In this document: positions 382-36,169 of the stretch, one piece after another | Numbering within the stretch: position 1 is the first letter of the stretch | Layout: each line of letters starts with the position of its first letter | From: a virus | DNA length: 36,169 nt | IMG/VR virus record: IMGVR_UViG_3300046012_000418 | Location: 1 to 36,169 of that record | Direction: 5' to 3' (one strand) | Translations under genes and position numbers: made by a program | Notes under the pieces: model-generated | Told to the model about the DNA's origin: nothing | What the model saw: the letters and a program-made list of their open reading frames with translations, nothing else | Database searches by the model: none

Positions 382-411
382 AGCGTCGGGCGGGTCAAAC
401 CGCTCGGCGCT
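382..411 (+). terminator. Strong hairpin, putative terminator
   Basis: Bases 382-393 pair with 400-411 over 12 positions (two G-T wobbles) around a six-base loop. It lies just after the zinc-finger gene and before the leader of the next gene. There is no U-run after it, so it may be a pause or processing hairpin rather than a classical intrinsic terminator. Confidence 0.5.
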
Positions 412-421
412 CTTGCAGTTC

Positions 422-447
422 GCAGTCCACTACGAAAAAGGAGCTAC
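422..447 (+). promoter_or_regulatory. Shared leader element with ribosome site, copy A
   Basis: These 26 bases are identical to 28383-28408. They run from GCAGTCCACTACG to AAGGAGCTAC and end one base before the ATG at 449. AAGGAG is the ribosome-binding site, but the identity extends well upstream of what the ribosome needs. No convincing sigma70 promoter is visible directly upstream of this copy. Confidence 0.6.
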
Positions 448-448
448 A

Positions 449-769
449 ATGAATGCAATCGAGGTAATCGCAGAACGAATCGAGCAGCACGTTGACGGCG
501 GCGAGGTTCGGATTGAGTCGCCGATCTTCGAGGCATCGCGGGAGGCGGAAGTTGGAAACGACGTGCGCGTCGTTCTCTACCCCGGCACCGTCGAGAAGGG
601 CAGCGGTCTACGGTCAGAATTGTTCGCATTTACGGTCTACGTCTTTGACGCTCCAAATTGCGAGAACGGGTATACGCAGGTAACGGTGAACTTCGATACC
701 GCGTTTGACCCTATCAACTATCTCTACTACTACGAGGACGGTTCAGAACTTCGCCTCAACTCGAACTAG
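449..769 (+). CDS. Hypothetical protein, 106 aa
   Basis: The start chosen is ATG 449, which lies two bases after the AAGGAGCTAC leader. An upstream in-frame start at 413 would run through the leader and is unlikely. The product is acidic and soluble. It has a helical N-terminal third (residues 1-20), then alternating charged and aromatic beta-like segments ending in a Tyr-rich stretch near residue 92. It has one Cys, no signal peptide and no motif I recognise. It sits as a single gene between two hairpins, so it may be transcribed alone. Function unknown. Confidence 0.7.
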   Translation: MNAIEVIAERIEQHVDGGEVRIESPIFEASREAEVGNDVRVVLYPGTVEKGSGLRSELFAFTVYVFDAPNCENGYTQVTVNFDTAFDPINYLYYYEDGSELRLNSN

Positions 770-809
770 GGCGAGAGGTTGCAGCGGGGTTCGATTCCTC
801 GCCGCCCCT
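769..809 (+). other. tRNA 3'-end-like segment (possible attP core) or hairpin
   Basis: Bases 785-801 fold as a T-arm: five pairs with one wobble and the loop TTCGATT. They are followed by CCGCCCC and T at 802-809, the layout of an acceptor 3' strand plus discriminator. No matching 5' half with a good acceptor strand is present upstream, so this is not a whole tRNA. Many integrative phages carry a tRNA 3' end as attP. The same bases can also form a hairpin, GGGCG/CGCCC plus GAGG/CCTC, which could end the preceding transcript. No integrase is seen in the window. Confidence 0.3.
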
Positions 810-837
810 TGCAGGTAGTTGTAGAACCTGCTATAAG
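809..837 (+). promoter_or_regulatory. Sigma70-like promoter of the exported-protein gene
   Basis: A -35 box TTGCAG at 809-814 and a -10 box TATAAG at 832-837 are separated by exactly 17 bases. Six bases after the -10 box the leader begins with GCAGT at 844. The promoter at 28348-28376 shows the same offset, which supports a transcription start near that G. Confidence 0.6.
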
Positions 838-843
838 TAGTCC

Positions 844-870
844 GCAGTACAAAACTACTAAAGGAGCTAC
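844..870 (+). promoter_or_regulatory. Shared leader element, copy C (diverged)
   Basis: This 27-base stretch starts with GCAGTAC and ends with ACTACTAAAGGAGCTAC, a variant of the leader at 422-447 and 28383-28408. It ends one base before the ATG at 872. Confidence 0.5.
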
Positions 871-871
871 C

Positions 872-1366
872 ATGAGTGAACGATTCTGGAAGTACCTATC
901 GATAGTCCTGACGGTCGCGGTGATCGTCGCGGCGTCTCTGGTCCCTGCGAGCGGTGCGCCGGTCTATCGGACCGACGAAGGCAGCAGCTCGCAGAACTGC
1001 CGCACGCTGAACCATCTCGGATCTCCGATGGTCTGCGATAAGGCATCGATCCAAAATGCGGTTCCCCTGCCCGATCCTAGTCCGGCCTCGCCTCCCCGCT
1101 CGGCTGCGCCTAGCTCGCCGGTCGTGAGCACCGGGACGGAAGCAGCGGCTACGCAGATTTGTTTCCCTGCACGTAGCTGGAGTACGGCATACGGGGCGTC
1201 TGCGGAGGATCGGCCGTGCGACGTTCTGTTCCGGCCACAAGAGGACGGCAGCACGCGCCTGGTGCTAGGGACGGTCGGTGCGGACGCTGCGGTATGCGTT
1301 GTTCCTAACCCGTACGAGGAGAGGGGGCACTTCGACGTAGAGTGCCACCGCGTACCGAATCGGTAG
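872..1366 (+). CDS. Exported cysteine-bearing protein, 164 aa (moron-like)
   Basis: The start is ATG 872 behind AAGGAGCTAC; the longer in-frame reading from 779 would run through the promoter. The N-terminus is a clear Sec signal: a short basic region, hydrophobic residues about 8-26, then a PASGA-type cleavage site near residue 30. The mature part has six Cys residues (suggesting disulfides outside the membrane) and a Pro/Ser/Ala-rich linker around residues 66-90. I recognise no enzyme motif. The gene has its own promoter (809-837) and an intrinsic terminator (1409-1442). This is the layout of a moron, a phage gene expressed independently, often in the lysogen. A role at the host surface is an inference. 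Confidence 0.72.
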   Translation: MSERFWKYLSIVLTVAVIVAASLVPASGAPVYRTDEGSSSQNCRTLNHLGSPMVCDKASIQNAVPLPDPSPASPPRSAAPSSPVVSTGTEAAATQICFPARSWSTAYGASAEDRPCDVLFRPQEDGSTRLVLGTVGADAAVCVVPNPYEERGHFDVECHRVPNR

Positions 1367-4236: not shown

Positions 4237-4370
4237 GCCAACTTCGCGATAACCCGCACCTTCCTCAGTCGTCTAGAAAAGCGATTGAGAAAGAGTTGCG
4301 AGGAGTACAAAATCCGAGGAAGCCTAACGAGGGCACTCCTCAGAACCCAGCACCCAAAAAGGAGAAATGA
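4233..4370 (+). CDS. Small basic polar protein, 45 aa
   Basis: The ATG lies five bases after AAAGG in AGTAAAGGAAT, and the ORF ends in an ATGA overlap with the peptidase gene. The product is rich in Lys, Arg, Pro and Asn, with one possible helix around residues 14-24, and is otherwise likely unstructured. No family is recognised. Confidence 0.55.
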   Translation: MSQLRDNPHLPQSSRKAIEKELRGVQNPRKPNEGTPQNPAPKKEK

Positions 4371-5170
4371 TGTCAGACGCCACTGCACGTAAATATGGTT
4401 GGAGGCCGTCGCTTCCTGACTTCCGGGATGCAGGCGTTCCTGACAGGGTTGTAGAGACTTCTCTATCTCTGCCTCCGGAAGTAGACCCGCGCGAGGCGAT
4501 GCCACCTGTCTACGATCAGGGCCAACTTGGAAGCTGCACCGCGAATGCAATCGCCGCCGCCTTCCAGTTCCACAGCCAGCAGCACTACGACACGGAGTTT
4601 GGCGTTCCTTCTCGCCTCTTCATCTACTACATGGAGCGGCTTCGAGAGGGCACCGTACAAGAGGACTCCGGAGCGTACGGGCGCGATGGCTTCGCCTCTC
4701 TGCGCAAAACCGGTGTGTGCCGCGAGGAGGCTTGGCCGTACGACATTTCCCGGTTCCGCGAAGTTCCGCCGGAGGCCGCGTACGAGGAAGCAGCCGGGCA
4801 CAAAATCAAGGGCTACTTCCATCCTGGCCTGAATCCTAGGGACAACAGGGAAAAGCGGCTTGCAGAAATGAAAGCAGCTCTGGCTGTGCTGAACCCCATC
4901 GCCTTCGGGTTCACGGTTTACGAGTCTTTTGAGTCGGCTGCCGTTGCGGAAAACGGCGTCGTGCCAATGCCGAAGAAGGACGAGAGGGTCTTGGGCGGTC
5001 ACGAGGTCCTCATGATCGGGTATCTCAAGTCTTGTCCAGACCACGCACTCTGCCGGAACAGCTGGGGCAACGGCTGGGGGATGGACGGATACTTCCTGAT
5101 GCCTTGGTCTTTGATCCTTAACCCACAGATGGCGAGCGACTTCCGCGCTATCGAGGACATTGTCCGATGA
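4370..5170 (+). CDS. Papain-family (C1) cysteine peptidase, 266 aa
   Basis: The catalytic set of papain-like peptidases is readable: oxyanion Gln50 and nucleophile Cys56 in YDQGQLGSCTANA, His211 in GGHEVLMIGY, and Asn230 in CRNSWGNGWG, followed by the usual GYF strand. There is no signal peptide and no long inhibitory propeptide, so it probably acts inside the infected cell or in the virion. The start chosen is ATG 4370, five bases after GGAG; ATG 4367 is too close to it. It sits between large terminase and portal, which suggests it is made with the head proteins. A separate prohead protease is encoded downstream, so its substrate is unclear. The family call is firm; the role is open. Confidence 0.88.
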   Translation: MSDATARKYGWRPSLPDFRDAGVPDRVVETSLSLPPEVDPREAMPPVYDQGQLGSCTANAIAAAFQFHSQQHYDTEFGVPSRLFIYYMERLREGTVQEDSGAYGRDGFASLRKTGVCREEAWPYDISRFREVPPEAAYEEAAGHKIKGYFHPGLNPRDNREKRLAEMKAALAVLNPIAFGFTVYESFESAAVAENGVVPMPKKDERVLGGHEVLMIGYLKSCPDHALCRNSWGNGWGMDGYFLMPWSLILNPQMASDFRAIEDIVR

Positions 5171-5322
5171 CCGCCCTCAGAGTCGTACGCTGGCGGGTCG
5201 AGGATGCTGGAACTGGAGAGACCCTTCATCCAGGGGTTTTGACCGAAAGCTACGCCGAAGTCCTCTGCGACAAACTAAAGCGTAAGCACCCGGCAGCATT
5301 CGTAAAAAGGGTTGATCCCTGA
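5167..5322 (+). CDS. Small hypothetical protein, 51 aa
   Basis: The ATG overlaps the peptidase stop and the TGA overlaps the portal ATG (TGATG), so it is embedded in the operon. The sequence reads as a two-strand beta unit followed by a helix (residues 27-40) and is basic at the C-terminus. No family is recognised. It is probably real because of its tight overlaps on both sides. Confidence 0.6.
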   Translation: MTALRVVRWRVEDAGTGETLHPGVLTESYAEVLCDKLKRKHPAAFVKRVDP

Positions 5323-22350: not shown

Positions 22351-25300
22351 ATGGCCGTCCCTGTTGAGCACGCAGTAAATAAATACACTGGGGTCAGCGC
22401 CACCAGTCGTACGGTGACGGTACCAGCCGGTTCAAAAGCCGGAGATGCGTTGTTCGTTCCGATTAAGGTTGCATTGAAAGGAACGATTGCGGCTCCTGCG
22501 GGTTGGACTGAAGTTGCCAAACAGAAAATAGCAGGGATCGAAAATTGGACGGTAGCAGTATTTGTTTTACCTAATTGGAACGGTACGACTACTGAATACA
22601 CGTTCACTTGGGGCGGTTCAAAAGTCGAAAGCGTCGCTCATATCTTCGCTGTAGAACTGGCTGACAAAATTAAACCAGTCAGTGCCGTCAGCAGCGAAAC
22701 GATTCAGGAAAACACTCCGGCCTCTACCAAAGCTCCCGTACCGGCGTACACTGTACCCACGGCGGAAAATCGAGCCTTCGCAATCGTCTTCAACAACGAA
22801 GGTTTCACCTATACGCAAGGGGCAGGATACACGGAGTTCGCGGACCAAGCAGACGGTCCAGAGGCTGTTTACAAGGCAGAAGGATTCGGACCAGGAGAAC
22901 TTCCAAAATACGAATCCTCCTCAGGCTCGGCGGTGACGCTTACGATAGGGTTCTCAGTTCAACCTGCGCAACCCGAAGGCAAAAACTACACTCTTGAAGT
23001 TAACGAGAGCGTCACGATCTCAGAGTCTGTTTCAAAAGAACCGGGAAAGAATCCTTCTGAGGTAGTAACCATTACGGAGTCAATTGCCAAGGATGCAACT
23101 AAGGAACGGTCCGAGGCCGTAACGGTTACTGAGTCAGTATCTAAGGAGCCGGGCAAGGAACCTTCTGAGGGCGTAACGGTTGCTGAGTCGGTTGTAAAGG
23201 AGCCGCAGAAGAATCCTTCAGAGGTCGTAACCGTTTCTGAGTCAATCGGCAAGGAAGCCGAAAAGACGATAGCCGAGTCGGTCACCGCAGCCGAGAGTGT
23301 AACCAAGCAGCCGGAAAAGACGGTTTCAGAGAGCACCAAAACGGAAGAGGCTGTATCTGGACTCGCAGTCCTTCCGAGCGAAGGCAAAATTACGGCAGCC
23401 GAACTCAAAGCTGCTGAACCACTTGATCCTCTTATCCGCAAACCTGCCGAGCCCATATTTGGAAAAGACTGGCATGGCACTTTTGCGGACCCCGGCGAAG
23501 GAACCCCTACTGGGTGGACTCACCTACCAGGGGAAATCTTCTCAACGGCGCGCTGGTGGAGATATGGTTTCCCCGCTTCGGCTGCGACGGGTCTGACGTT
23601 TGCTGAGCCTTTGAGTGCAGGGCAAGAGGTGCGCATTGTACTTGGGGATAACAAGGTTGGAAACTCGGTCGTTCTGAAGATAGCTTACAACAGTCCCGAA
23701 TTCTACTTCTACGCCTTGTACGAGGAGAGCCCAGAAGGGGAAATTGAACCGGCGATGGGGTCAGGATTTTTGCCTGTTGTCAAAGGGGATAAGTTCTATC
23801 TGACCTTTGAGAAAGGGTTCGAGGGTATTCGAGCTTGGAGACAAACCGGGGTAGGTAGTCCGACGGTCTTCACGCAAGGAACGTTGACTGAACCCCTTGA
23901 AATCTACGGGACGACTGCGGATCTCATTCTTCAGGGAGCCGGATCGTTTAGGGGTACCAACTTCATAGCTTTCAGTCTTAACCCTGAACCGCCAATTGTA
24001 GAGAAAAAAGCGGATAAAATGATTGTCTCTCTACAAGCGCAGAACTGGGGAGGCAAAACCGTAGAAGACATCGCTGCTGCCGTACACAATGCGAGGTTCG
24101 ACACGGAAGACAGCAGCGTAGGGTTCCTAGAAAAACTTCTGGCAGCCGGATTAAAAATCACTTGTCTGTTCTCCGGCCCTTACAATGAAGAAGGAGTGTC
24201 GGCGCTTGACCCCGACGAATGGGTCGCGAACGCTCTGGCCTACTACGAAGCGAATCTAACCCCGGAACAGGCACCGATTGTAGAGGTTCTTAATGAGCCT
24301 CACGGACCTTGGTTCTGGGGGGAAGGGGCGAATAGCGCGAAAAATGCTCTCGCCTATCGGGTCATAATCAAAAAAACTTATGAAGCCTTCCACGCAAGGT
24401 ACGGCAGCGAATCCCCAAAGATAATCGCTTCTGTAGAAGGCAGCGGGATTGACTTTGGAGAAAAGTGGTGGGAGCCTTCTGCTGCCGCATACCTCGATGG
24501 AGTTGTTGTTCACCCCTATGGAGGACACGATTCAGAAGAAAAAGAAGCTTCTGCCAGGGGACATAGGGACAAGGTTGAAGAAGCACGGTTGCTTACCGGA
24601 GAATCGCTTCCAGTCTACGTAACCGAGGTTGGATGGCCTACGGCTATTGGAGAAGAACCGACTGGCGATAGCTTGCAGTGGACCGAGGCAGAGCAAGCAA
24701 CTAATATAACTGAATTCTTTGAATGGGCAAGGGGACAAAGGTATGTAGCGGAGGTTGCGTACTTCGGTTATCACGACTTCGGAACCAATACCTGGTACGG
24801 AGTCGTAGATCTAGTAGGTAGGCATAAGGCGGGGTATGCGTCTATCGAAAGGCAAACCGGCATATACGACGGGACCTTTGTAGAATCTAGAGTTCCGATT
24901 CGTCGTCACGTCGTCCCGGATAAGCTGGCCATACGGATCGATGCCCCTGGGGGCGGGTCGGCACGCTGGGCAGACGACGAGATACGGCCAGAGAACGTCA
25001 TGTCAGGCATCACTATCGAGGACGAGATGCCGGGCGGCTATAAGCAACTCAAGGGTACGCTCGCACGCAATCCTCAGATCAACTGGCCTGATACCGGGAC
25101 GTACGGCAGGGTTAAAGCCTACTTGCCAGGGGTTGAGAAAGTATTCGAGGGAAGTCTCGACAAGAGTCCGCAGGCAAGCGGCGACCATCTATCGATGCGC
25201 CCCGAAATGGTCGGCGACCAAAGACTCCTAGAAGACGATAAGTCAGTCAAATTCGGGATCATCGACGGCGATCTAAGCAAGTGGGGCGCGCCTTCAACGT

Positions 25301-26562
25301 TGCGCCGTAGGTCGCTCGCTCTAGCGAATTACCACCTGATCATCGATATGATTCTTGGGTTCAATGATGCCTCGAACGAATGGGGACCAGGAGTAATCTT
25401 CCAAGTAGATAGTTCGGGAGGGAATACCGAAGCCGGACAATTCTTAGGAGAAGCCTGGTGGTACGGAGGGGGCATCGACGTAGCAAAGCTAAGATACGAC
25501 TACAAACAGCTTAGCCCTTATGGCGAACCTGACTTCGACTGGATTGATGAGCCACGTGCATCGCAGACCGATGACGGCGAATTCTGGCTAGGGACTAATC
25601 ATCAACGTCAGAGCGCTACGAATCAGACTCTGAACGTTACTCCGGCAGGCTACAAGTACCTCGCGCTCCTAGTATTGCGGGAAGCTGCTTTGGGAGGAAC
25701 CTTCGTAAACATCGATGGGTTCCTCAATCCTAAAGTCATAGGGCGACACGGACTAGCCGAGAAAGGTACTTGGCCCAACATAGGGTTCACTGCAAAGCAG
25801 ATCCATGAATACGCAATCCCCTTGTTCGCTTCTGGACTGGTAGTCAAACCCGAGAACATAGAAGACGACGGGTATGTAATTGAACAAGCTTGGTACGAAG
25901 CTGCGGGAACTCTAGCGGAACACATTCGAGACTACTGCAAATACTCTCTGTATGATTGGTTCGTCTTTGACGATATGGAGTTTCAGTACCGCAAGCCGGG
26001 AAGCTACGGCAGGCAGTGGAGAATCAATATTGGAGACTCTGAACTTGAAGAAGACGGGCTAGACGGAGAACGCCTCTGGGAATCAATAGTCGTTTCCTTT
26101 CAAGACGTAAGCGGCAGGACGATCACGGTCGGCCCGCCCGGATCGGGCTCGGACGTAGAAAGCGGACTCCTCAAAGTAAGCGATCCGGAACACCCGGCTG
26201 TACTTGCTAAAAGGAAGCGTCGCGATCTCCTCGAACTCCAGGGAGTTTCAAACCCTGCACAGGCAATCGAAGTCGGGGTGCGGTTCCTTGAAGAAGCAAA
26301 CCTGCTCCCGCGTTCTGGCTCCGCAAAAATTAGCGGCTTCGCCCTCGACTCAAACTCCGTGCTGCGTCCGGTTTCGCAGATGAAATCAGGAGACTACGTA
26401 AGCTTTGTAGACGCGCACGATAACTCTTACCGAAAGATCGTACACCGGCTCTACGATCATGACAGCAGATCGGCGGAGATAGACTTTGATGCTCCCCCGA
26501 CTGGTCTGGAACAGCTACTAGAAAGGCTACAAGGCGTGCTCAATCCATTGGGGGTCTCATAG
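22351..26562 (+). CDS. Giant tail-tip fusion: binding region, repeats, glycosidase, hub
   Basis: Reading order is as follows. Residues 1-210 form a beta-rich binding-type domain. Residues 218-325 are six 18-residue repeats. Residues 360-550 are a second beta-sandwich. Residues about 553-840 are a clan GH-A glycoside hydrolase barrel, with Glu649 in VLNEPHG as likely acid/base and Glu759 in YVTEVGWPT as likely nucleophile. Residues 850-1403 form a hub/tail-associated region (RIDAPGGGSARW..., SAKISGFALDSNS near the end) that anchors it to the tail. It probably degrades capsule or wall glycan during adsorption. The substrate cannot be told from sequence. The ribosome site before ATG 22351 is weak. 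Confidence 0.82.
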   Translation: MAVPVEHAVNKYTGVSATSRTVTVPAGSKAGDALFVPIKVALKGTIAAPAGWTEVAKQKIAGIENWTVAVFVLPNWNGTTTEYTFTWGGSKVESVAHIFAVELADKIKPVSAVSSETIQENTPASTKAPVPAYTVPTAENRAFAIVFNNEGFTYTQGAGYTEFADQADGPEAVYKAEGFGPGELPKYESSSGSAVTLTIGFSVQPAQPEGKNYTLEVNESVTISESVSKEPGKNPSEVVTITESIAKDATKERSEAVTVTESVSKEPGKEPSEGVTVAESVVKEPQKNPSEVVTVSESIGKEAEKTIAESVTAAESVTKQPEKTVSESTKTEEAVSGLAVLPSEGKITAAELKAAEPLDPLIRKPAEPIFGKDWHGTFADPGEGTPTGWTHLPGEIFSTARWWRYGFPASAATGLTFAEPLSAGQEVRIVLGDNKVGNSVVLKIAYNSPEFYFYALYEESPEGEIEPAMGSGFLPVVKGDKFYLTFEKGFEGIRAWRQTGVGSPTVFTQGTLTEPLEIYGTTADLILQGAGSFRGTNFIAFSLNPEPPIVEKKADKMIVSLQAQNWGGKTVEDIAAAVHNARFDTEDSSVGFLEKLLAAGLKITCLFSGPYNEEGVSALDPDEWVANALAYYEANLTPEQAPIVEVLNEPHGPWFWGEGANSAKNALAYRVIIKKTYEAFHARYGSESPKIIASVEGSGIDFGEKWWEPSAAAYLDGVVVHPYGGHDSEEKEASARGHRDKVEEARLLTGESLPVYVTEVGWPTAIGEEPTGDSLQWTEAEQATNITEFFEWARGQRYVAEVAYFGYHDFGTNTWYGVVDLVGRHKAGYASIERQTGIYDGTFVESRVPIRRHVVPDKLAIRIDAPGGGSARWADDEIRPENVMSGITIEDEMPGGYKQLKGTLARNPQINWPDTGTYGRVKAYLPGVEKVFEGSLDKSPQASGDHLSMRPEMVGDQRLLEDDKSVKFGIIDGDLSKWGAPSTLRRRSLALANYHLIIDMILGFNDASNEWGPGVIFQVDSSGGNTEAGQFLGEAWWYGGGIDVAKLRYDYKQLSPYGEPDFDWIDEPRASQTDDGEFWLGTNHQRQSATNQTLNVTPAGYKYLALLVLREAALGGTFVNIDGFLNPKVIGRHGLAEKGTWPNIGFTAKQIHEYAIPLFASGLVVKPENIEDDGYVIEQAWYEAAGTLAEHIRDYCKYSLYDWFVFDDMEFQYRKPGSYGRQWRINIGDSELEEDGLDGERLWESIVVSFQDVSGRTITVGPPGSGSDVESGLLKVSDPEHPAVLAKRKRRDLLELQGVSNPAQAIEVGVRFLEEANLLPRSGSAKISGFALDSNSVLRPVSQMKSGDYVSFVDAHDNSYRKIVHRLYDHDSRSAEIDFDAPPTGLEQLLERLQGVLNPLGVS
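23002..23325 (+). repeat. Six tandem 54-bp (18-residue) coding repeats
   Basis: Six units of exactly 18 codons read approximately SEVVTVTESVSKEPGKNP with substitutions in every unit; a seventh partial unit follows. They are in frame within the tail-tip fusion gene. The regular V-T-x-x-E-S-V/I pattern with Lys/Pro turns suggests a stalk or spacer between the N-terminal domain and the hydrolase. Confidence 0.85.
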
Positions 26563-28227: not shown

Positions 28228-28245
28228 TTGAAATGCCCATGCTTG

Positions 28246-28284
28246 CGGAGGGGGTACCTACGTATCGTGGGTGTACCCCCTCCG
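28246..28284 (+). terminator. Perfect 12-bp inverted repeat after the lysis genes
   Basis: Bases 28246-28257 are the exact reverse complement of 28273-28284 with a 15-base loop. No U-run follows. The position at the end of the late operon fits a terminator. The motif GGGGTAC recurs here (28251, reverse at 28273, 28290, 28305), so a protein-binding site is also possible. Confidence 0.55.
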
Positions 28285-28347
28285 TAGGAGGGGTACCCAG
28301 GGTAGGGGTACTAGGAGTGGGCCGTTACGAGCAGGAAGGGGTATGGG

Positions 28348-28376
28348 TTGCTTTCCGCTTCCCGAGCCGATATGCT
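28348..28376 (+). promoter_or_regulatory. Sigma70-like promoter for the right-hand genes
   Basis: TTGCTT at 28348-28353 and TATGCT at 28371-28376 are 17 bases apart. The 26-base shared leader starts six bases after the -10 box, the same offset as at 832-844. Confidence 0.55.
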
Positions 28377-28382
28377 ACGCAG

Positions 28383-28408
28383 GCAGTCCACTACGAAAAA
28401 GGAGCTAC
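28383..28408 (+). promoter_or_regulatory. Shared leader element, copy B
   Basis: This stretch is identical over all 26 bases to 422-447, although the genes that follow are unrelated. AAGGAG lies within it, and ATG 28413 follows after four bases. Confidence 0.6.
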
Positions 28409-28412
28409 CAAG

Positions 28413-28655
28413 ATGTGTCGGAACTGGCAAGAGGGAGACGATGTTGTAGTTAACTACCCGCGCAGTGGTACCAGTCGCTACGGAACGATCATTAATAGCT
28501 CCGGGCACGGTCACTGGTGCGTCTTGTATTACCAGGACCAGGATTCGACCCAGGCCGAGGAAGCCGATCCTTACGTACAAGAAAGCTGGATGGAGGTCCC
28601 TGGCGCTCATGCACAGATGACCTCGACCGGCTGCGACCAGAAGGAGCTACTATGA
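28413..28655 (+). CDS. Hypothetical protein, 80 aa
   Basis: The start is ATG 28413 after the leader; a longer in-frame reading from 28233 would cross the hairpin and promoter. The N-terminal half (GDDVVVNYPRSGTSRYGTIINSSGHGHWCVLYY) reads as a small beta barrel of SH3/KOW-like type, a shape that often binds nucleic acid or peptides. The C-terminus is acidic. No named family is recognised. Confidence 0.68.
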   Translation: MCRNWQEGDDVVVNYPRSGTSRYGTIINSSGHGHWCVLYYQDQDSTQAEEADPYVQESWMEVPGAHAQMTSTGCDQKELL

Positions 28656-29056
28656 GTTTGTATGGGGGGGGGCAGCGCGGCATGACCTACGCAGAAAGCG
28701 AAGACTTTGTCGAGCGACTCGCCATGATGCCCGACGACGCGGAAGAGTTCATGAACATGTTTCTACGGTCGGGACACGCTCCCCCGTATTTTCTGGGACT
28801 CCTTATGCTCCGCGAGGGCGTCAAATTTCTAGAAATGAGCGAGCATCAGTGCGATGACTGCGATAACCCAAGTTGTTTCGGGCGACCTCAGCATCAACAA
28901 CTGATTCGTGAAACCTTTCTGCCGAACATACAGGCGGTTAGAGAGTCTGTAGAGGATTTGAAGAGGGAGTTCACCGCCTATATCTATCAGATCTCTAACT
29001 GCGAATGTCAAGACTGCAAGACGAAAGACAAAAAGGATGCCGCGAGATTCAACTGA
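28652..29056 (+). CDS. Cys-pair hypothetical protein, 134 aa
   Basis: AAGGAGCTAC lies just before ATG 28652, which overlaps the previous stop. The protein is helical, with two Cys groups: CDDCDNPSC near residues 67-75 and CECQDC near 121-126. These may bind one or two metal ions. It lies in a run of small early-type genes. Function unknown. Confidence 0.65.
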   Translation: MSLYGGGQRGMTYAESEDFVERLAMMPDDAEEFMNMFLRSGHAPPYFLGLLMLREGVKFLEMSEHQCDDCDNPSCFGRPQHQQLIRETFLPNIQAVRESVEDLKREFTAYIYQISNCECQDCKTKDKKDAARFN

Positions 29057-29318: not shown

Positions 29319-29363
29319 CGTCCGACCGGCTCGTATAGACTGCGCGGGACGGCAGAAGTATTC

Positions 29364-29398
29364 GCCCCCGGTGCGGCCTCCGACCCCGCGCCGGGGGC
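29364..29398 (+). terminator. 13-bp GC-rich hairpin
   Basis: Bases 29364-29376 pair with 29386-29398 (one T-G wobble) around a nine-base loop. No U-run follows; a partial copy of the shared leader (29412-29429) comes next. It fills most of the 113-base gap between 29318 and 29432, where a weak TATAGA at 29334 has no good -35 partner. Confidence 0.55.
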
Positions 29399-29411
29399 CA
29401 CCGCCGAGAAA

Positions 29412-29429
29412 TCCACTACACGGAGCTAC
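29412..29429 (+). promoter_or_regulatory. Shared leader element, partial copy D
   Basis: TCCACTACACGGAGCTAC matches the 3' two thirds of the leader at 422-447 with a short deletion in the A-run. GGAG is the ribosome site for ATG 29432. Confidence 0.45.
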
Positions 29430-29431
29430 GA

Positions 29432-29614
29432 ATGGATCTGAACAAAAATAGATGGTCTGACTTTTCCGATCAAGAGGTCGGAGTCATATCTACTGCTTTG
29501 ATATTCGCAAGAGAAGAGGCGCTCAAAGCAGGATTGATAAGTAATAGCCCTGATACTGTCTCAGTCAAACTTCTAACTGAGCTGCATACTGAGTTGGCAG
29601 AAAGAATTGTCTAA
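29432..29614 (+). CDS. Small acidic helical protein, 60 aa
   Basis: It starts three bases after the leader copy and its stop overlaps the helicase ATG (TAATG), so the two are translationally coupled. The sequence looks fully helical (two or three helices) without Cys or motif. It could be a helicase accessory, judged by position only. Confidence 0.6.
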   Translation: MDLNKNRWSDFSDQEVGVISTALIFAREEALKAGLISNSPDTVSVKLLTELHTELAERIV

Positions 29615-31671
29615 TGGATCTGGACAAACCAGTTAAGGCAGAGATCAGCAGGGGAGGCAACTACATAGACATTGACTTCCCCTACTCTCCTCAACGAGTC
29701 GAAGCGGTTAAGGAAATCACCTCATGGAGGTTCGTTTCCAAAAAACGCAACGGCCCGAAGATTTGGAGAGTGGCGCTGGACTTGCCTACTTGTCGCAGAC
29801 TGCGCGAGGTCTTCGGCGAGGAACTTAAGATCGGCGATAAGCTCAACAACTGGGGACATGATGAGGTCGAGCGGGAGCGATCGCTCGCGGACCTCTCGAT
29901 GGCGGAGGACGCCGAGTTGAAGAACGTCCCTGCTCCCCTGATTGAAGGAGCGATGCGGCCGGACGGACGCCTCTGGGAGCCGCGAGCCACTTGGAGGGCC
30001 GACGTAGCCTTCATGGCACAGGGCAGGTTCATCAATGCGAATCAGCCCGGCTACGGGAAGACCGGCGAGTACATCGGCGCGGTCATGGAGGCCGATCTCA
30101 CGTGGGGTCAGCATCTTGTATTCGCACCCGTAACCTCTCTAGAGGTCGTGTGGCAGTTTGAACTTGAACAGCTATACGAGACGGCCGGGCTAGAGGCACC
30201 TACGATCTTCACCGGCGATACCCCGGCGATGCGCAAGCGTGCTATCAAAGAAGCAGCCGAGTACGCCGAAGACGGCCTGGCCTTCTGGTTGGTGCTGAAC
30301 CCACATATGGGCCGGATGAAGAGGGAACTGAAACCGGAGATCAAAGAGCGGCTAGCGAAGATGAGCGAAAAGACTCAGAACGCTTGGTTGAAGGAGATGC
30401 CTGAAGAGGAATGTTACGACCAGTTCCTTGTTAACCCCGAACTTGCAGAAGTGGACTGGGACTCGATTAACATTGACGAGTTTCACCTTATGGGCCTGAG
30501 CAATCTCAGCACGCAGGCTTCAGTCGGCATGAACTCAATTGCGAACGAAACGGAACCGTTCATGCGTGGCTGCATGTCGGGCACGCCGATGGGAGGGAAG
30601 CCGATCAAGTTGTTCGGTGCCCTGCACTTCGTAGAGCCAGGCAGATTCCCGGCGAAATGGCACTGGGCGCGGCAGTGGCTCGAAATCAAAGTGTCCGAAC
30701 GCGACGATAAACCGACGCGGGAGATCGAGGGTATCCAGGAGGGCCGCGAGTTTGAATTCTACGAGTACCATAGGCAATGGTTACTCCGTAGGTTGAAGAC
30801 CGGGCTACCGCCGAAGCAGCGGATACCCGTCTGGTGCAAGATGACGCCGAAACAGGCAACGCAGTACCAGACGTTCGAGCTTGAGGCCGAGCTTCGCATA
30901 GACGACATGGAAGGCGAAGGGCGGCTGACGGCGACGAACGTCCTTGCAGAGTACACTCGCCTCAAACAATTCGCTTCGGCCTTCTGTGAAGTCAAAAAGA
31001 GCGGCATCGAGCGCAAAGGTAAAGAAATAATCGAAGTGGTGCCGACTGCCGAGAGCGGCAAGTACGAACAGCTTATTGAGAAGCTGAAAGAGGAGAACGT
31101 CATCGTGGAAGACGAGGACGACGACGCTCCCAAACTTGCGATCATCGCCTCTCAGTTCACCGCCGTAGTAGAGGCAGGTGTCATGGCCGCCTTGAAGAAG
31201 TACCGCGTTCCGGCTGGGACCATCACTGGACAGGTCACCGGCAAAAACCGGACGGCCGTTGCGAAATCCTTCCAGCTACAAGAAGTAGAGTTTCTGAAGG
31301 AGTGGCCGAAGAAGTCTAAGCTGGTTGAAGAACTAATTGCGAACGGACCGCCGCGAGTCATCGTGATGAATACGAAGGCGGGCGGCACGACGCTGACGCT
31401 GACGAGTGCGGATAGCGTTCACATCCTCGATGAGACTTGGGACCCTGACGATCAGGAGCAGGTAGAGGACCGAGACCATCGAAACGACGATCTTACTAAG
31501 TTGAAGGACGAAGTTCGGATCTACTACTATCGGACGAAGCACTCCATCGAGGAAATGATCATGGAAGTCACGTCCGATAAGGAACTGAACAACAAAACCG
31601 TCCTTGATCTCCGCGAGAAGATGAAGGCAGTCTACGCGGCAAAAGTTTCGGGGGACGATCAAGATGGGTAG
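29614..31671 (+). CDS. SNF2-type superfamily 2 helicase/ATPase, 685 aa
   Basis: An ATP-driven DNA translocase is the likely role. Motif I is GYGKT at residues 146-150 and motif II is DEFH at 288-291 (IDEFHLMG). Motif III is MSGTPMGG near 326. Motif V is NTKAGGTTLTLTSADSVHILDETWDPDDQ near 590-613, and motif VI is QVEDRDHR near 615-622. The order and the W-D-P-x-D-x-x-Q pattern are typical of SNF2/RapA relatives. The first 60 residues are a separate alpha/beta domain. The acidic insertion EDEDDDA near 503 separates the two lobes. It lies in the replication/recombination block. Confidence 0.88.
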   Translation: MDLDKPVKAEISRGGNYIDIDFPYSPQRVEAVKEITSWRFVSKKRNGPKIWRVALDLPTCRRLREVFGEELKIGDKLNNWGHDEVERERSLADLSMAEDAELKNVPAPLIEGAMRPDGRLWEPRATWRADVAFMAQGRFINANQPGYGKTGEYIGAVMEADLTWGQHLVFAPVTSLEVVWQFELEQLYETAGLEAPTIFTGDTPAMRKRAIKEAAEYAEDGLAFWLVLNPHMGRMKRELKPEIKERLAKMSEKTQNAWLKEMPEEECYDQFLVNPELAEVDWDSINIDEFHLMGLSNLSTQASVGMNSIANETEPFMRGCMSGTPMGGKPIKLFGALHFVEPGRFPAKWHWARQWLEIKVSERDDKPTREIEGIQEGREFEFYEYHRQWLLRRLKTGLPPKQRIPVWCKMTPKQATQYQTFELEAELRIDDMEGEGRLTATNVLAEYTRLKQFASAFCEVKKSGIERKGKEIIEVVPTAESGKYEQLIEKLKEENVIVEDEDDDAPKLAIIASQFTAVVEAGVMAALKKYRVPAGTITGQVTGKNRTAVAKSFQLQEVEFLKEWPKKSKLVEELIANGPPRVIVMNTKAGGTTLTLTSADSVHILDETWDPDDQEQVEDRDHRNDDLTKLKDEVRIYYYRTKHSIEEMIMEVTSDKELNNKTVLDLREKMKAVYAAKVSGDDQDG

Positions 31672-33532: not shown

Positions 33533-33916
33533 ATGAGCAACCTAGTGAGCAATCCAGAACCAGACGACATCGAGATCATCCCTGACGAGGACATCGAGAT
33601 ATGTTGGGAACCTAATAAATACGATGACAAACTGGTATGGGAAAAGCTCGACGGATCGATGAGGATCGAGACCGTTCAACAAAAGGATGAACGGCTGAAG
33701 TGGGATGATGACAAAGAAAAATATGTCAAAGTAAGTAAGGATGCTTTCGCTGAAGCTGAGGAGATGTTCAAACAGGCGATGCGGGGAGAGCAGAAAGCGC
33801 CGCGCCCGAAGCGACCTAGAAAAATCTTCATCCCCGATACCGGCGATATAGAGGCAGAGTTAAACAAACAGTTAAAAGAAGAACTGGACGAGATGTTAAG
33901 AAAATGGTTCAGATAA
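33533..33916 (+). CDS. Acidic hypothetical protein, 127 aa
   Basis: The first 25 residues are very acidic (PDDIEIIPDEDIEI). The middle has a beta-like WEPNKYDDKLVWEKLDGSMRIE, then helices broken by a basic proline patch (KAPRPKRPRK, near 90-98). No family is recognised. It starts one base after the previous stop and is followed by a gene with the AAGGAGCTAC ribosome site. Confidence 0.62.
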   Translation: MSNLVSNPEPDDIEIIPDEDIEICWEPNKYDDKLVWEKLDGSMRIETVQQKDERLKWDDDKEKYVKVSKDAFAEAEEMFKQAMRGEQKAPRPKRPRKIFIPDTGDIEAELNKQLKEELDEMLRKWFR

Positions 33917-33926
33917 AGGAGCTACA

Positions 33927-34196
33927 GTGAAATTCAAAGACTACGTAAACGAACTGCGCATAACCGGCAAGTGCCAATGTTGGGACTGCCTGAGGCAAGC
34001 AGGCTTCACCCCGCCGAAGGGCGAGCGCGGCAATCACCCGTCGATCTCTCCTCACGGCGTCTTTGGTAAGGACGAGGGAGGAGAACCCGTACTAACGCAC
34101 GGTACGAGGCGATCCAAAGACAAGGATCAGGTCGGCACGACGCCTTCTGAAGGTCACGAATTGCGCGAGTCGGTCCGCAACAGGTCGGCGATCTAA
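33927..34196 (+). CDS. Basic Cys-pair hypothetical protein, 89 aa
   Basis: GTG 33927 follows AAGGAGCTACA. Residues 16-21 are CQCWDC, and the rest is polar, basic and Gly/His-rich without a second metal pair. It overlaps the next ATG at TAATG. Function unknown. Confidence 0.6.
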   Translation: MKFKDYVNELRITGKCQCWDCLRQAGFTPPKGERGNHPSISPHGVFGKDEGGEPVLTHGTRRSKDKDQVGTTPSEGHELRESVRNRSAI

Positions 34197-35450: not shown

Positions 35451-36169
35451 ATGGCTAAAATTACTTACGATGTAAGGGACGTAGAGCCCAGTCGAAGTTT
35501 TGACAAACCTATCCCCGTAGGGGTTTATCCGATGGTTATCGCTAACTGTCAGAAAACCTCCGCCAAGAGTTCCGGAAGCGACATGCTCATGATCGAGCTA
35601 GAAGTCGTCAAAGGCGAACACAAAGGTCGGAAAGTCTGGGAGTACATCGTGCTGGACGAGTCTTCTGAATGGAAGGTCCGCCAGTTGATCGATGCCCTAG
35701 GCATGAAACTGAAAGGCAGCATTGACACCGATGCCCTAATCGGCAAGGCTATCACGATCAAGACGAAGCACGATTCGTTTGAGCGTCCTAACGACGAGTC
35801 GGGCGAGATGGAAGTGGTCGTCACGTCGAAGGTTGCTTCTCTTCTCAAACTCAAAAAAGATGCACCCGAGGAGGCCGAGGAGGAGGAAGAGGAGACCGAC
35901 GAGGAGGAGGAGACCCCCGAGGCCGAGGAGGCTGAGGAGGGAGAGTACACCTGGGACGATCTCCAGAAGATGGACCGCTCGGAGTTGAAAGCGTTCATCA
36001 AAGAGAACGACTCGGACTACAAAGTCAAGAAAAAGGATTCCGACGAAGACATTCGTGTTGCGCTTGCCGAGGAGTACGGCATCGAGCAGGGCGAGGCTGC
36101 CGAGGAGGCCGAGGAGGAGGAAGAGGAGACCGAGGAGGACGGCACCGACTACAATGAATGGATTTTTCT
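35451..36169 (+). CDS. DUF669-type ssDNA-binding protein with acidic and SAP-like parts (3' partial)
   Basis: The frame is open to the last base. Residues 1-125 match the DUF669/phage SSB pattern: IPVGVYPMVIANCQKTSAKSSGSDMLMIELEV, GRKVWEYIVLDE, WKVRQLIDALG. Then come a Glu-rich run, a SAP/HeH-like helix pair (WDDLQKMDRSELKAFIKEND, near residues 165-184) and a second Glu-rich run. Two exact 34-bp copies (35866-35899, 36100-36133) encode the acidic parts. Acidic tails in SSBs recruit partners, so it probably works with the adjacent Sak4-like ATPase. Confidence 0.72.
   Translation, partial: MAKITYDVRDVEPSRSFDKPIPVGVYPMVIANCQKTSAKSSGSDMLMIELEVVKGEHKGRKVWEYIVLDESSEWKVRQLIDALGMKLKGSIDTDALIGKAITIKTKHDSFERPNDESGEMEVVVTSKVASLLKLKKDAPEEAEEEEEETDEEEETPEAEEAEEGEYTWDDLQKMDRSELKAFIKENDSDYKVKKKDSDEDIRVALAEEYGIEQGEAAEEAEEEEEETEEDGTDYNEWIF
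35866..36133 (+). repeat. Exact 34-bp direct repeat pair in the SSB-like gene
   Basis: Bases 35866-35899 and 36100-36133 are identical, with a period of 234 bases (78 codons, in frame). They encode the two Glu-rich runs that flank the SAP-like segment. Confidence 0.8.

Follow-up and report, generated by a model that had tools for sequence, protein, structure and literature searches.

The window analysed here, which is the whole IMG/VR record IMGVR_UViG_3300046012_000418 of 36,169 bases, carries a short leader that recurs immediately in front of start codons, is restricted to non-structural genes and is conserved at orthologous genes of a related phage. Probably, this leader is a composite site at which both transcription and translation start, belonging to the non-structural arm of the phage group from which the window comes and conserved by descent.

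The window is a fragment of a phage whose group has genomes of about 47-52 kb. The genes run from terminase through head, tail and a small holin-like membrane protein to helicase, exonuclease and others, an order that is the same in relatives of about 47-52 kb, namely G001, G021, G022, G023, G025 and G026, while G024 has the late genes in common with the window and is without the helicase. G001 (49.6 kb) has a terminase 64% identical to that of the window, and the closest complete relative is G025, with 51,987 bases, a 127-base end overlap, and 74% and 58% identity in terminase and helicase, respectively. End overlaps as for circular or terminally redundant genomes are present in G001, G021, G025 and G026; they were looked for in G022 and G023 and not found there. 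Compared with G025, roughly 15 kb of the right arm is absent from the window, and the genes at 449 and 872 are the far end of that arm, adjoining the terminase genes as they do in G025. The phage collection held no near-DNA match to the window, the 20-mer CACTACGAAAAAGGAGCTAC had no exact match in IMG/VR beyond the window's own record, and the pattern CCACTACN(3-8)AGGAGCTAC gave 92 stretches, about the chance expectation and not tied to start codons. Since searches by leader sequence fail in this way, relatives had to be sought by protein. Single-sequence patterns gave no relatives of the protein at 5322, and the only close match among cellular genomes (65%) was to a contig from a Sphingomonadales metagenome bin, no other exceeding 51%. 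The features of the window on which the argument turns are these:

382-411, + strand: hairpin A, 12-bp stem, 3' of the previous gene (stop 366) and 5' of the leader of 449; TANNNT is absent at the usual distance
422-447, + strand: leader A, GCAGTCCACTACGAAAAAGGAGCTAC, before gene 449; identical to 28383-28408
449-769, + strand: accessory gene, 106 aa, no family match
769-808, + strand: hairpin B, immediately 3' of gene 449-769, with a 3' half similar to a tRNA T-arm/acceptor
809-837, + strand: promoter-like TTGCAG-17-TATAAG, read directly, by consensus only
844-870, + strand: leader B, GCAGTACAAAACTACTAAAGGAGCTAC, before 872; the orthologue G025 41239 has GGAGCTACCATG, with CTAC upstream
872-1366, + strand: accessory gene, 164 aa, hydrophobic at the N-terminus, which may be a secretion signal; 63% over 93 aa to G025 41239
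28241-28288, + strand: hairpin C, just 3' of the gene for the small holin-like membrane protein (stop 28227); no hairpin of the window is stronger
28348-28376, + strand: promoter-like TTGCTT-17-TATGCT, read directly; TATRCT boxes at similar places in G010, G022 and G023
28383-28408, + strand: leader C, GCAGTCCACTACGAAAAAGGAGCTAC, before 28413
28413-28655, + strand: accessory gene, 80 aa; 34% over 70 aa to G025 16255
28641-28650, + strand: operon-internal AAGGAGCTAC, before 28652; the orthologue G025 16480 also has AAGGAGCTAC
28652-29056, + strand: accessory gene, 134 aa; 32% to G025 16480, E=4e-19
29333-29340, + strand: possible -10 element TATAGACT, upstream of hairpin D, by inspection only
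29364-29400, + strand: hairpin D, adjoining the leader; in G025 the helicase-gene leader also adjoins a hairpin, an unrelated one
29412-29429, + strand: leader D, TCCACTACACGGAGCTAC, before 29432, the first gene of the helicase operon; GGAGCTAC at the helicase start in G025, G026 and G023
29432-29614, + strand: accessory gene, 60 aa; one base is shared with the helicase start
29614-31671, + strand: SNF2-type DNA helicase, 685 aa (PF00176, PF00271, phrog_62)
33916-33925, + strand: operon-internal AAGGAGCTAC, before 33927
33927-34196, + strand: accessory gene, 89 aa, GTG start; 44% match in G026

The 8-mer common to all copies, GGAGCTAC, lies at 440, 863, 28401, 28643, 29422 and 33918, which is 1-4 nt before the starts 449, 872, 28413, 28652, 29432 and 33927. 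The sequence-only reading had described a leader recurring before non-structural starts, and every site and position that it gave for this leader checks out. Two further exact 8-mers are found in the window, one within a coding region (5402) and one on the minus strand (31668), and with one mismatch allowed the bare 8-mer is not enriched in the window as a whole (24 found versus 28.7 expected); its enrichment is positional, at gene starts. Among the 22 window genes with a GGAG ribosome-binding site, CTAC follows the GGAG in 6 (p about 1e-7 after 256-fold correction), and these make up 6/8 of the non-structural GGAG-bearing starts versus 0/14 of the late ones (Fisher p=4e-4), late genes being those for packaging, virion and lysis. 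When all window genes are counted, GGAGCTAC stands at 6/15 non-structural and 0/26 late starts (Fisher p=0.001). It is to be noted that gene starts came from a simple caller plus inspection and that start codons and the late/non-structural split were set from gene order and inspection, so these p-values are approximate. Most non-structural genes, 9/15 in the window and 38/45 in G025, do not have the element. The 26-mer shared by 422-447 and 28383-28408 is an exact repeat, as had been claimed; nothing else in the window lies within 3 mismatches of it, none of the relatives has the long leader, and 0/100 shuffles of the window gave any 26-mer match. No Rfam cis-regulatory family was found at the leaders. 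Start regions of the six genes fold less on average than those of late genes (-4.7 versus -8.1 kcal/mol), with overlapping distributions.

The element takes two forms. When the window and G025 are taken together, CTAC occurs a second time within 24 nt upstream of 8/13 GGAGCTAC starts, compared with 7/49 other GGAG starts; the shuffle mean for the GGAGCTAC starts was 1.3, and 0/20000 shuffles reached 8. The combined motif CTAC-N(2-16)-GGAGCTAC has 4 sites in the window and 5 in G025 on the coding strand and 0 on the opposite strands, and the distance between the upstream CTAC and GGAG varies from 2 to 12 nt. The eight copies with the upstream CTAC are those behind an intergenic gap, while the copies without it (28652, 33927, 16480, 21767 and 26774) are 0-30 nt from, or overlap, the preceding gene, a split noticed only after the sites in the window and G025 had been inspected. 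The shorter sites that the sequence-only reading had listed before 28652 and 33927 are real, and they are operon-internal copies consisting of the GGAGCTAC part only.

A strong hairpin does precede each of the four longer leaders, with energies of -23.6, -16.6, -36.0 and -30.4 kcal/mol for A, B, C and D, respectively, which puts them among the strongest 0.3, 1.6, 0.01 and 0.14% of 50-nt windows. The four hairpins have no sequence in common, however. In comparison with a classic intrinsic terminator, a GC-rich stem-loop followed by a T-run, the stems of the window are strong and the T-run is absent at all four, whereas the hairpin before G025 41239 has both: there GGGTCGGC-loop-GTCGGCCC is followed by TTTTTCTT (T-run), then by TTGACT-17-TAGTTT, and then by the leader. 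At G025 40079, the order is a strong hairpin, TACTCT and the leader. A GC-rich hairpin 3' of the holin-like gene is also present in G001, G010, G021 and G022, at the place of hairpin C, and this supports a role as terminator for the preceding genes. Where a -10-like box follows the hairpin and precedes the leader, the best reading of the hairpin is a terminator for the gene before it and not a fixed part of the element.

Promoter-like sequences are likewise confined to some of the copies. The two TTGCnn-17-TATnnn pairs at 809-837 and 28348-28376 each end six bases before the GCAGT of the leader, as had been noticed, and a generic promoter scan of the window flags neither; TATAAG at 832 departs from TANNNT. 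The complete order of hairpin, promoter-like pair and leader that had been proposed as a module is found at 872 and 28413 and is not found at 449 and 29432. At these two genes, as at G025 17274, the hairpin abuts the leader with no -10-like box between them, so that the hairpin may be within the 5' UTR, or transcription of the gene may begin at a more distant upstream site. -10-like boxes located 24-37 nt before GGAG are present at 872, at 28413 and in several relatives, and absent at 449 and 29432. In the intergenic gaps of G023, TATRCT boxes number 8 versus 0.6 in shuffles, and 6 of the 8 lie 34-40 nt before a start; as a group-wide -10 element TATRCT was rejected, being enriched in G023 and weakly in G022 and not in the window, G001, G021 and G024. 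Boxes resembling TANNNT also lie only 7-9 nt before GTG/ATG at 1600-1640 in the window and 950-980 in G001 (CATACTGCCCGGTCGTG; TACCCTGCCGGGCATG), upstream of the gene preceding that for the terminase large subunit, and this closeness suggests a leaderless transcript. Apart from the question of termination, hairpin B has a T-arm-like CGGGGTTCGATTCCTCG followed by an acceptor-like CCGCCCC. It was rejected as a tRNA gene, since ARAGORN finds none and Rfam gives a weak, sub-threshold tRNA-like match (mascRNA); it is possibly a remnant of a tRNA 3'-end, the core of an attachment site, or a product of chance.

How far is the leader kept outside the window? In G025, GGAGCTAC stands before 7/45 non-structural and 0/27 late genes (p=0.04; called genes), so that the absence of copies before structural genes, noticed in the window, extends to its closest complete relative. 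The seven genes are 16480, 17274, 21767, 26774, 38738, 40079 and 41239, and the window and G025 both have GGAGCTAC at the orthologous pairs 872/41239 (63%) and 28652/16480 (32%) and at the start of the helicase operon, where 17274 is the helicase itself and the window copy precedes 29432. Window 33927 was also considered as an orthologue of G025 21767 and rejected, because 21767 matches the next gene, 34196; the case is a near miss, the upstream neighbour of 34196 being 33927 with its GGAGCTAC. The site of G025 26774 lies inside the preceding gene and may be due to chance. G026 and G023 each have GGAGCTAC at the helicase and at a single further non-structural gene, and G010 has it at one non-structural gene; G023 also has it at one late gene (12536), where the site is inside the coding sequence of the previous gene. 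No GGAGCTAC start was found in G022 and G024, and the background in 27 distantly related phage loci is 6/542 GGAG starts. A looser rule for the whole group, GGAG-N(1-3)-TAC, was rejected: it occurs in G001, G010, G021 and G023, it does not occur at the non-structural genes of G022 and G024, and it also stands before a few late genes. Leaders at corresponding places in G022 (29164 and 31032) resemble the window's GCAGTC...AAAAAGGAGC when judged by eye, but have GGAGCAA. Repeats within single genomes are GCAGTCCACTAC in the window, CCTCTAC in G025, GGAGGTTAC (three times) in G001 and GTCAACCCCA in G022, and by appearance the leaders of one genome resemble one another more than they do those of other genomes.

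What, then, would such a leader do? Its core AGGAGCTAC combines the ribosome-binding site with a conserved CTAC spacer and lies 1-4 nt from the start codon; in copies behind an intergenic gap, an A/C-rich stretch that includes CTAC usually precedes this core. Many copies have a -10-like box 24-37 nt upstream, and often a terminator-like hairpin at the end of the gene before. The hairpin is supposed to end or insulate upstream transcription, after which a promoter of the host-sigma type would restart it, and the short, weakly structured leader would allow efficient and uniform translation of the non-structural genes. The leader would have been inherited with its genes, and selection or local recombination would have partly homogenised its copies within one genome. 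Pairing with the tail of 16S rRNA does not extend into the CTAC that follows GGAG, so plain strength of ribosome binding may not be the whole story. It is likely that selection acts on something beyond the ribosome-binding core, and spacer composition, the context of the start site or a factor are possible targets.

If a factor is the target, the leader could be bound by a phage-encoded RNA-binding protein or small RNA that sets translation or stability of the non-structural genes jointly, with the target co-evolving in each lineage. In favour of this are the conservation reaching past the ribosome-binding site, the two-part motif of the intergenic copies, and lineages with different, internally uniform start sequences, as expected of a lineage-specific reader; the same idea has been voiced for the start-associated sequences (SAS) of other phages (PMC3203893, PMC11373665). 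The variable distance of the upstream CTAC and its absence from operon-internal copies, however, leave no evident fixed binding site, and the uniformity is also explicable by selection for good translation or by local recombination; we regard such a factor as rather unlikely. Its generalisation, that many tailed-phage lineages each evolve their own start code, with leaders (GGAGCTACC with the upstream CTAC here; GGAGGTTAC, GGAGGGTCA and GGAGGGTACC elsewhere) read by a putative phage factor favouring non-structural transcripts, seems unlikely as well, and slightly more so.

The sequence-only reading had offered a portable expression cassette as one of two possibilities, the other being a co-regulated set. 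A moron cassette is a gene with its own promoter and terminator that one phage has and a relative with the same flanking genes lacks. Accessory genes might each have arrived with their own terminator, promoter and leader, and the identical 26-mer would then reflect a recent duplication or transfer. The exact identity of 26 bases in two copies that are separated by 28 kb of the contig and have unrelated flanks, the carrier genes unrelated to one another, and the terminator-promoter-gene arrangement at some accessory genes all fit this. But the signature is found at orthologous positions in G025 (872/41239, 28652/16480 and the helicase-operon start), which indicates descent, and also at the helicase-operon start in G026 and G023, so that core replication genes are included; moreover, the hairpin sequences differ, and the operon-internal copies lack hairpin and promoter. 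Portability is thus improbable as the explanation, while the other part of the claim, a real set of genes, stands, the leader being limited to non-structural genes and conserved in relatives. A reading by coincidence, in which the ribosome-binding sites are of the ordinary kind and only favour a certain spacer, would agree with the 8-mer alone not being over-represented across the window, and one local duplication could yield the 26-base pair; against the position-specific enrichment, the conservation in G025, the two-part motif and the low background, coincidence of this kind is hardly credible. The reading that we prefer is that of a composite start site inherited with the non-structural arm.

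Since 2011, SAS have been recognised in a few phage clusters, with no function assigned to them. In cluster K they are conserved ribosome-binding-site leaders before many genes, mostly outside the structural module, and about half of the copies have an extra upstream element, ESAS (PMC3203893, PMC11373665, PMC12699233). Cluster K SAS are usually 3-9 bp from start codons and have the 13-bp consensus GGGATAGGAGCCC; ESAS is an imperfect 17-bp inverted repeat of conserved sequence upstream of SAS, and its sequence differs by subcluster, the SAS papers including those on Adephagia (PMC11373665) and Yasnaya_Polyana (PMC12699233). In Adephagia, SigA-like promoters are found in the extended part, and a terminator-like hairpin between genes 90 and 91 (PMC11373665). 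The present leader is similar in being repeated at the ribosome-binding position (6 window and 7 G025 starts), although at 1-4 nt it is slightly closer to the start codon; in lying mostly outside the structural module (0/26 window and 0/27 G025 late genes); in having an extended form at some copies only; and in looking more uniform inside a genome than across genomes, as ESAS differs by subcluster. It differs in sequence, the cluster K consensus having 0 sites with up to 2 mismatches on both strands of the window and G025. There is no conserved 17-bp inverted repeat in the window, where the hairpins are unrelated in sequence, and none of the window direct repeats shown forms an inverted-repeat family like ESAS. 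As far as sequence comparison goes, the element can be regarded as SAS-like in position, distribution and extended form, yet outside the cluster K family.

Among Microbacterium phages, the motif of cluster EF is GGGAAAGGACCCC, with up to one mismatch; it occupies ribosome-binding positions and is preceded by a part of weak conservation. Clusters EC, EG and EI have intergenic repeats, those of EC and EG being 22-30 and 14-21 bp upstream of the start codon (PMC7302621). These clusters are likewise separate lineages with a conserved motif of their own before start codons. The sequences are different, and none of the leaders that were read resembles GGGAAAGGACCCC; in contrast to the EC and EG motifs, the window leader is at the ribosome-binding site and not further upstream. 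The papers on start-associated sequences cited here do not describe the leader sequence of this phage group. The group adds a further SAS-like case, with a different sequence and a two-part form tied to operon position, and with conservation at orthologues that have no more than about 30-65% protein identity. Along with other lineage-specific leaders it suggests that such a start-leader feature is common among phages, and the natural variants of the leader offer a test of whether the flanking bases act via the ribosome alone or via a phage factor.

Distant phages found via the helicase (L217, L218 and L219; L232, L236, L240, L243 and L264) also have repeated start leaders of their own: GAAGGAGGGTCA(A)ATG, 9-13 per 22 kb, and AAAGGAGGGTACCAATG, 8-10 per about 20 kb. 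In G033 (L240) and G034 (L236), the leader matches are confined to a 5-10 kb stretch of a 52-61 kb genome. L218 and L219 belong to one viral contig of 129,757 bases with two helicase regions about 65 kb apart, possibly two joined genomes or a concatemer.

Some other features of the window deserve mention. The protein encoded at 52-366 has no Pfam match; its cysteines may form a zinc-finger-like pattern, and its long tail rich in lysine and alanine (KKAPKKATKKAAKKAPKK) recalls histone-like tails. At 4367-5170, 3' of the terminase gene, a papain-type cysteine protease (PF00112) is encoded, with relatives of 54% in G001 and 58% in G025. The large gene 22351-26562 contains tandem 54-base repeats at 23005-23258, and GAG-rich repeats at 35859-36148 encode an acidic stretch at the contig end, where they may be the cause of the stop of the assembly.
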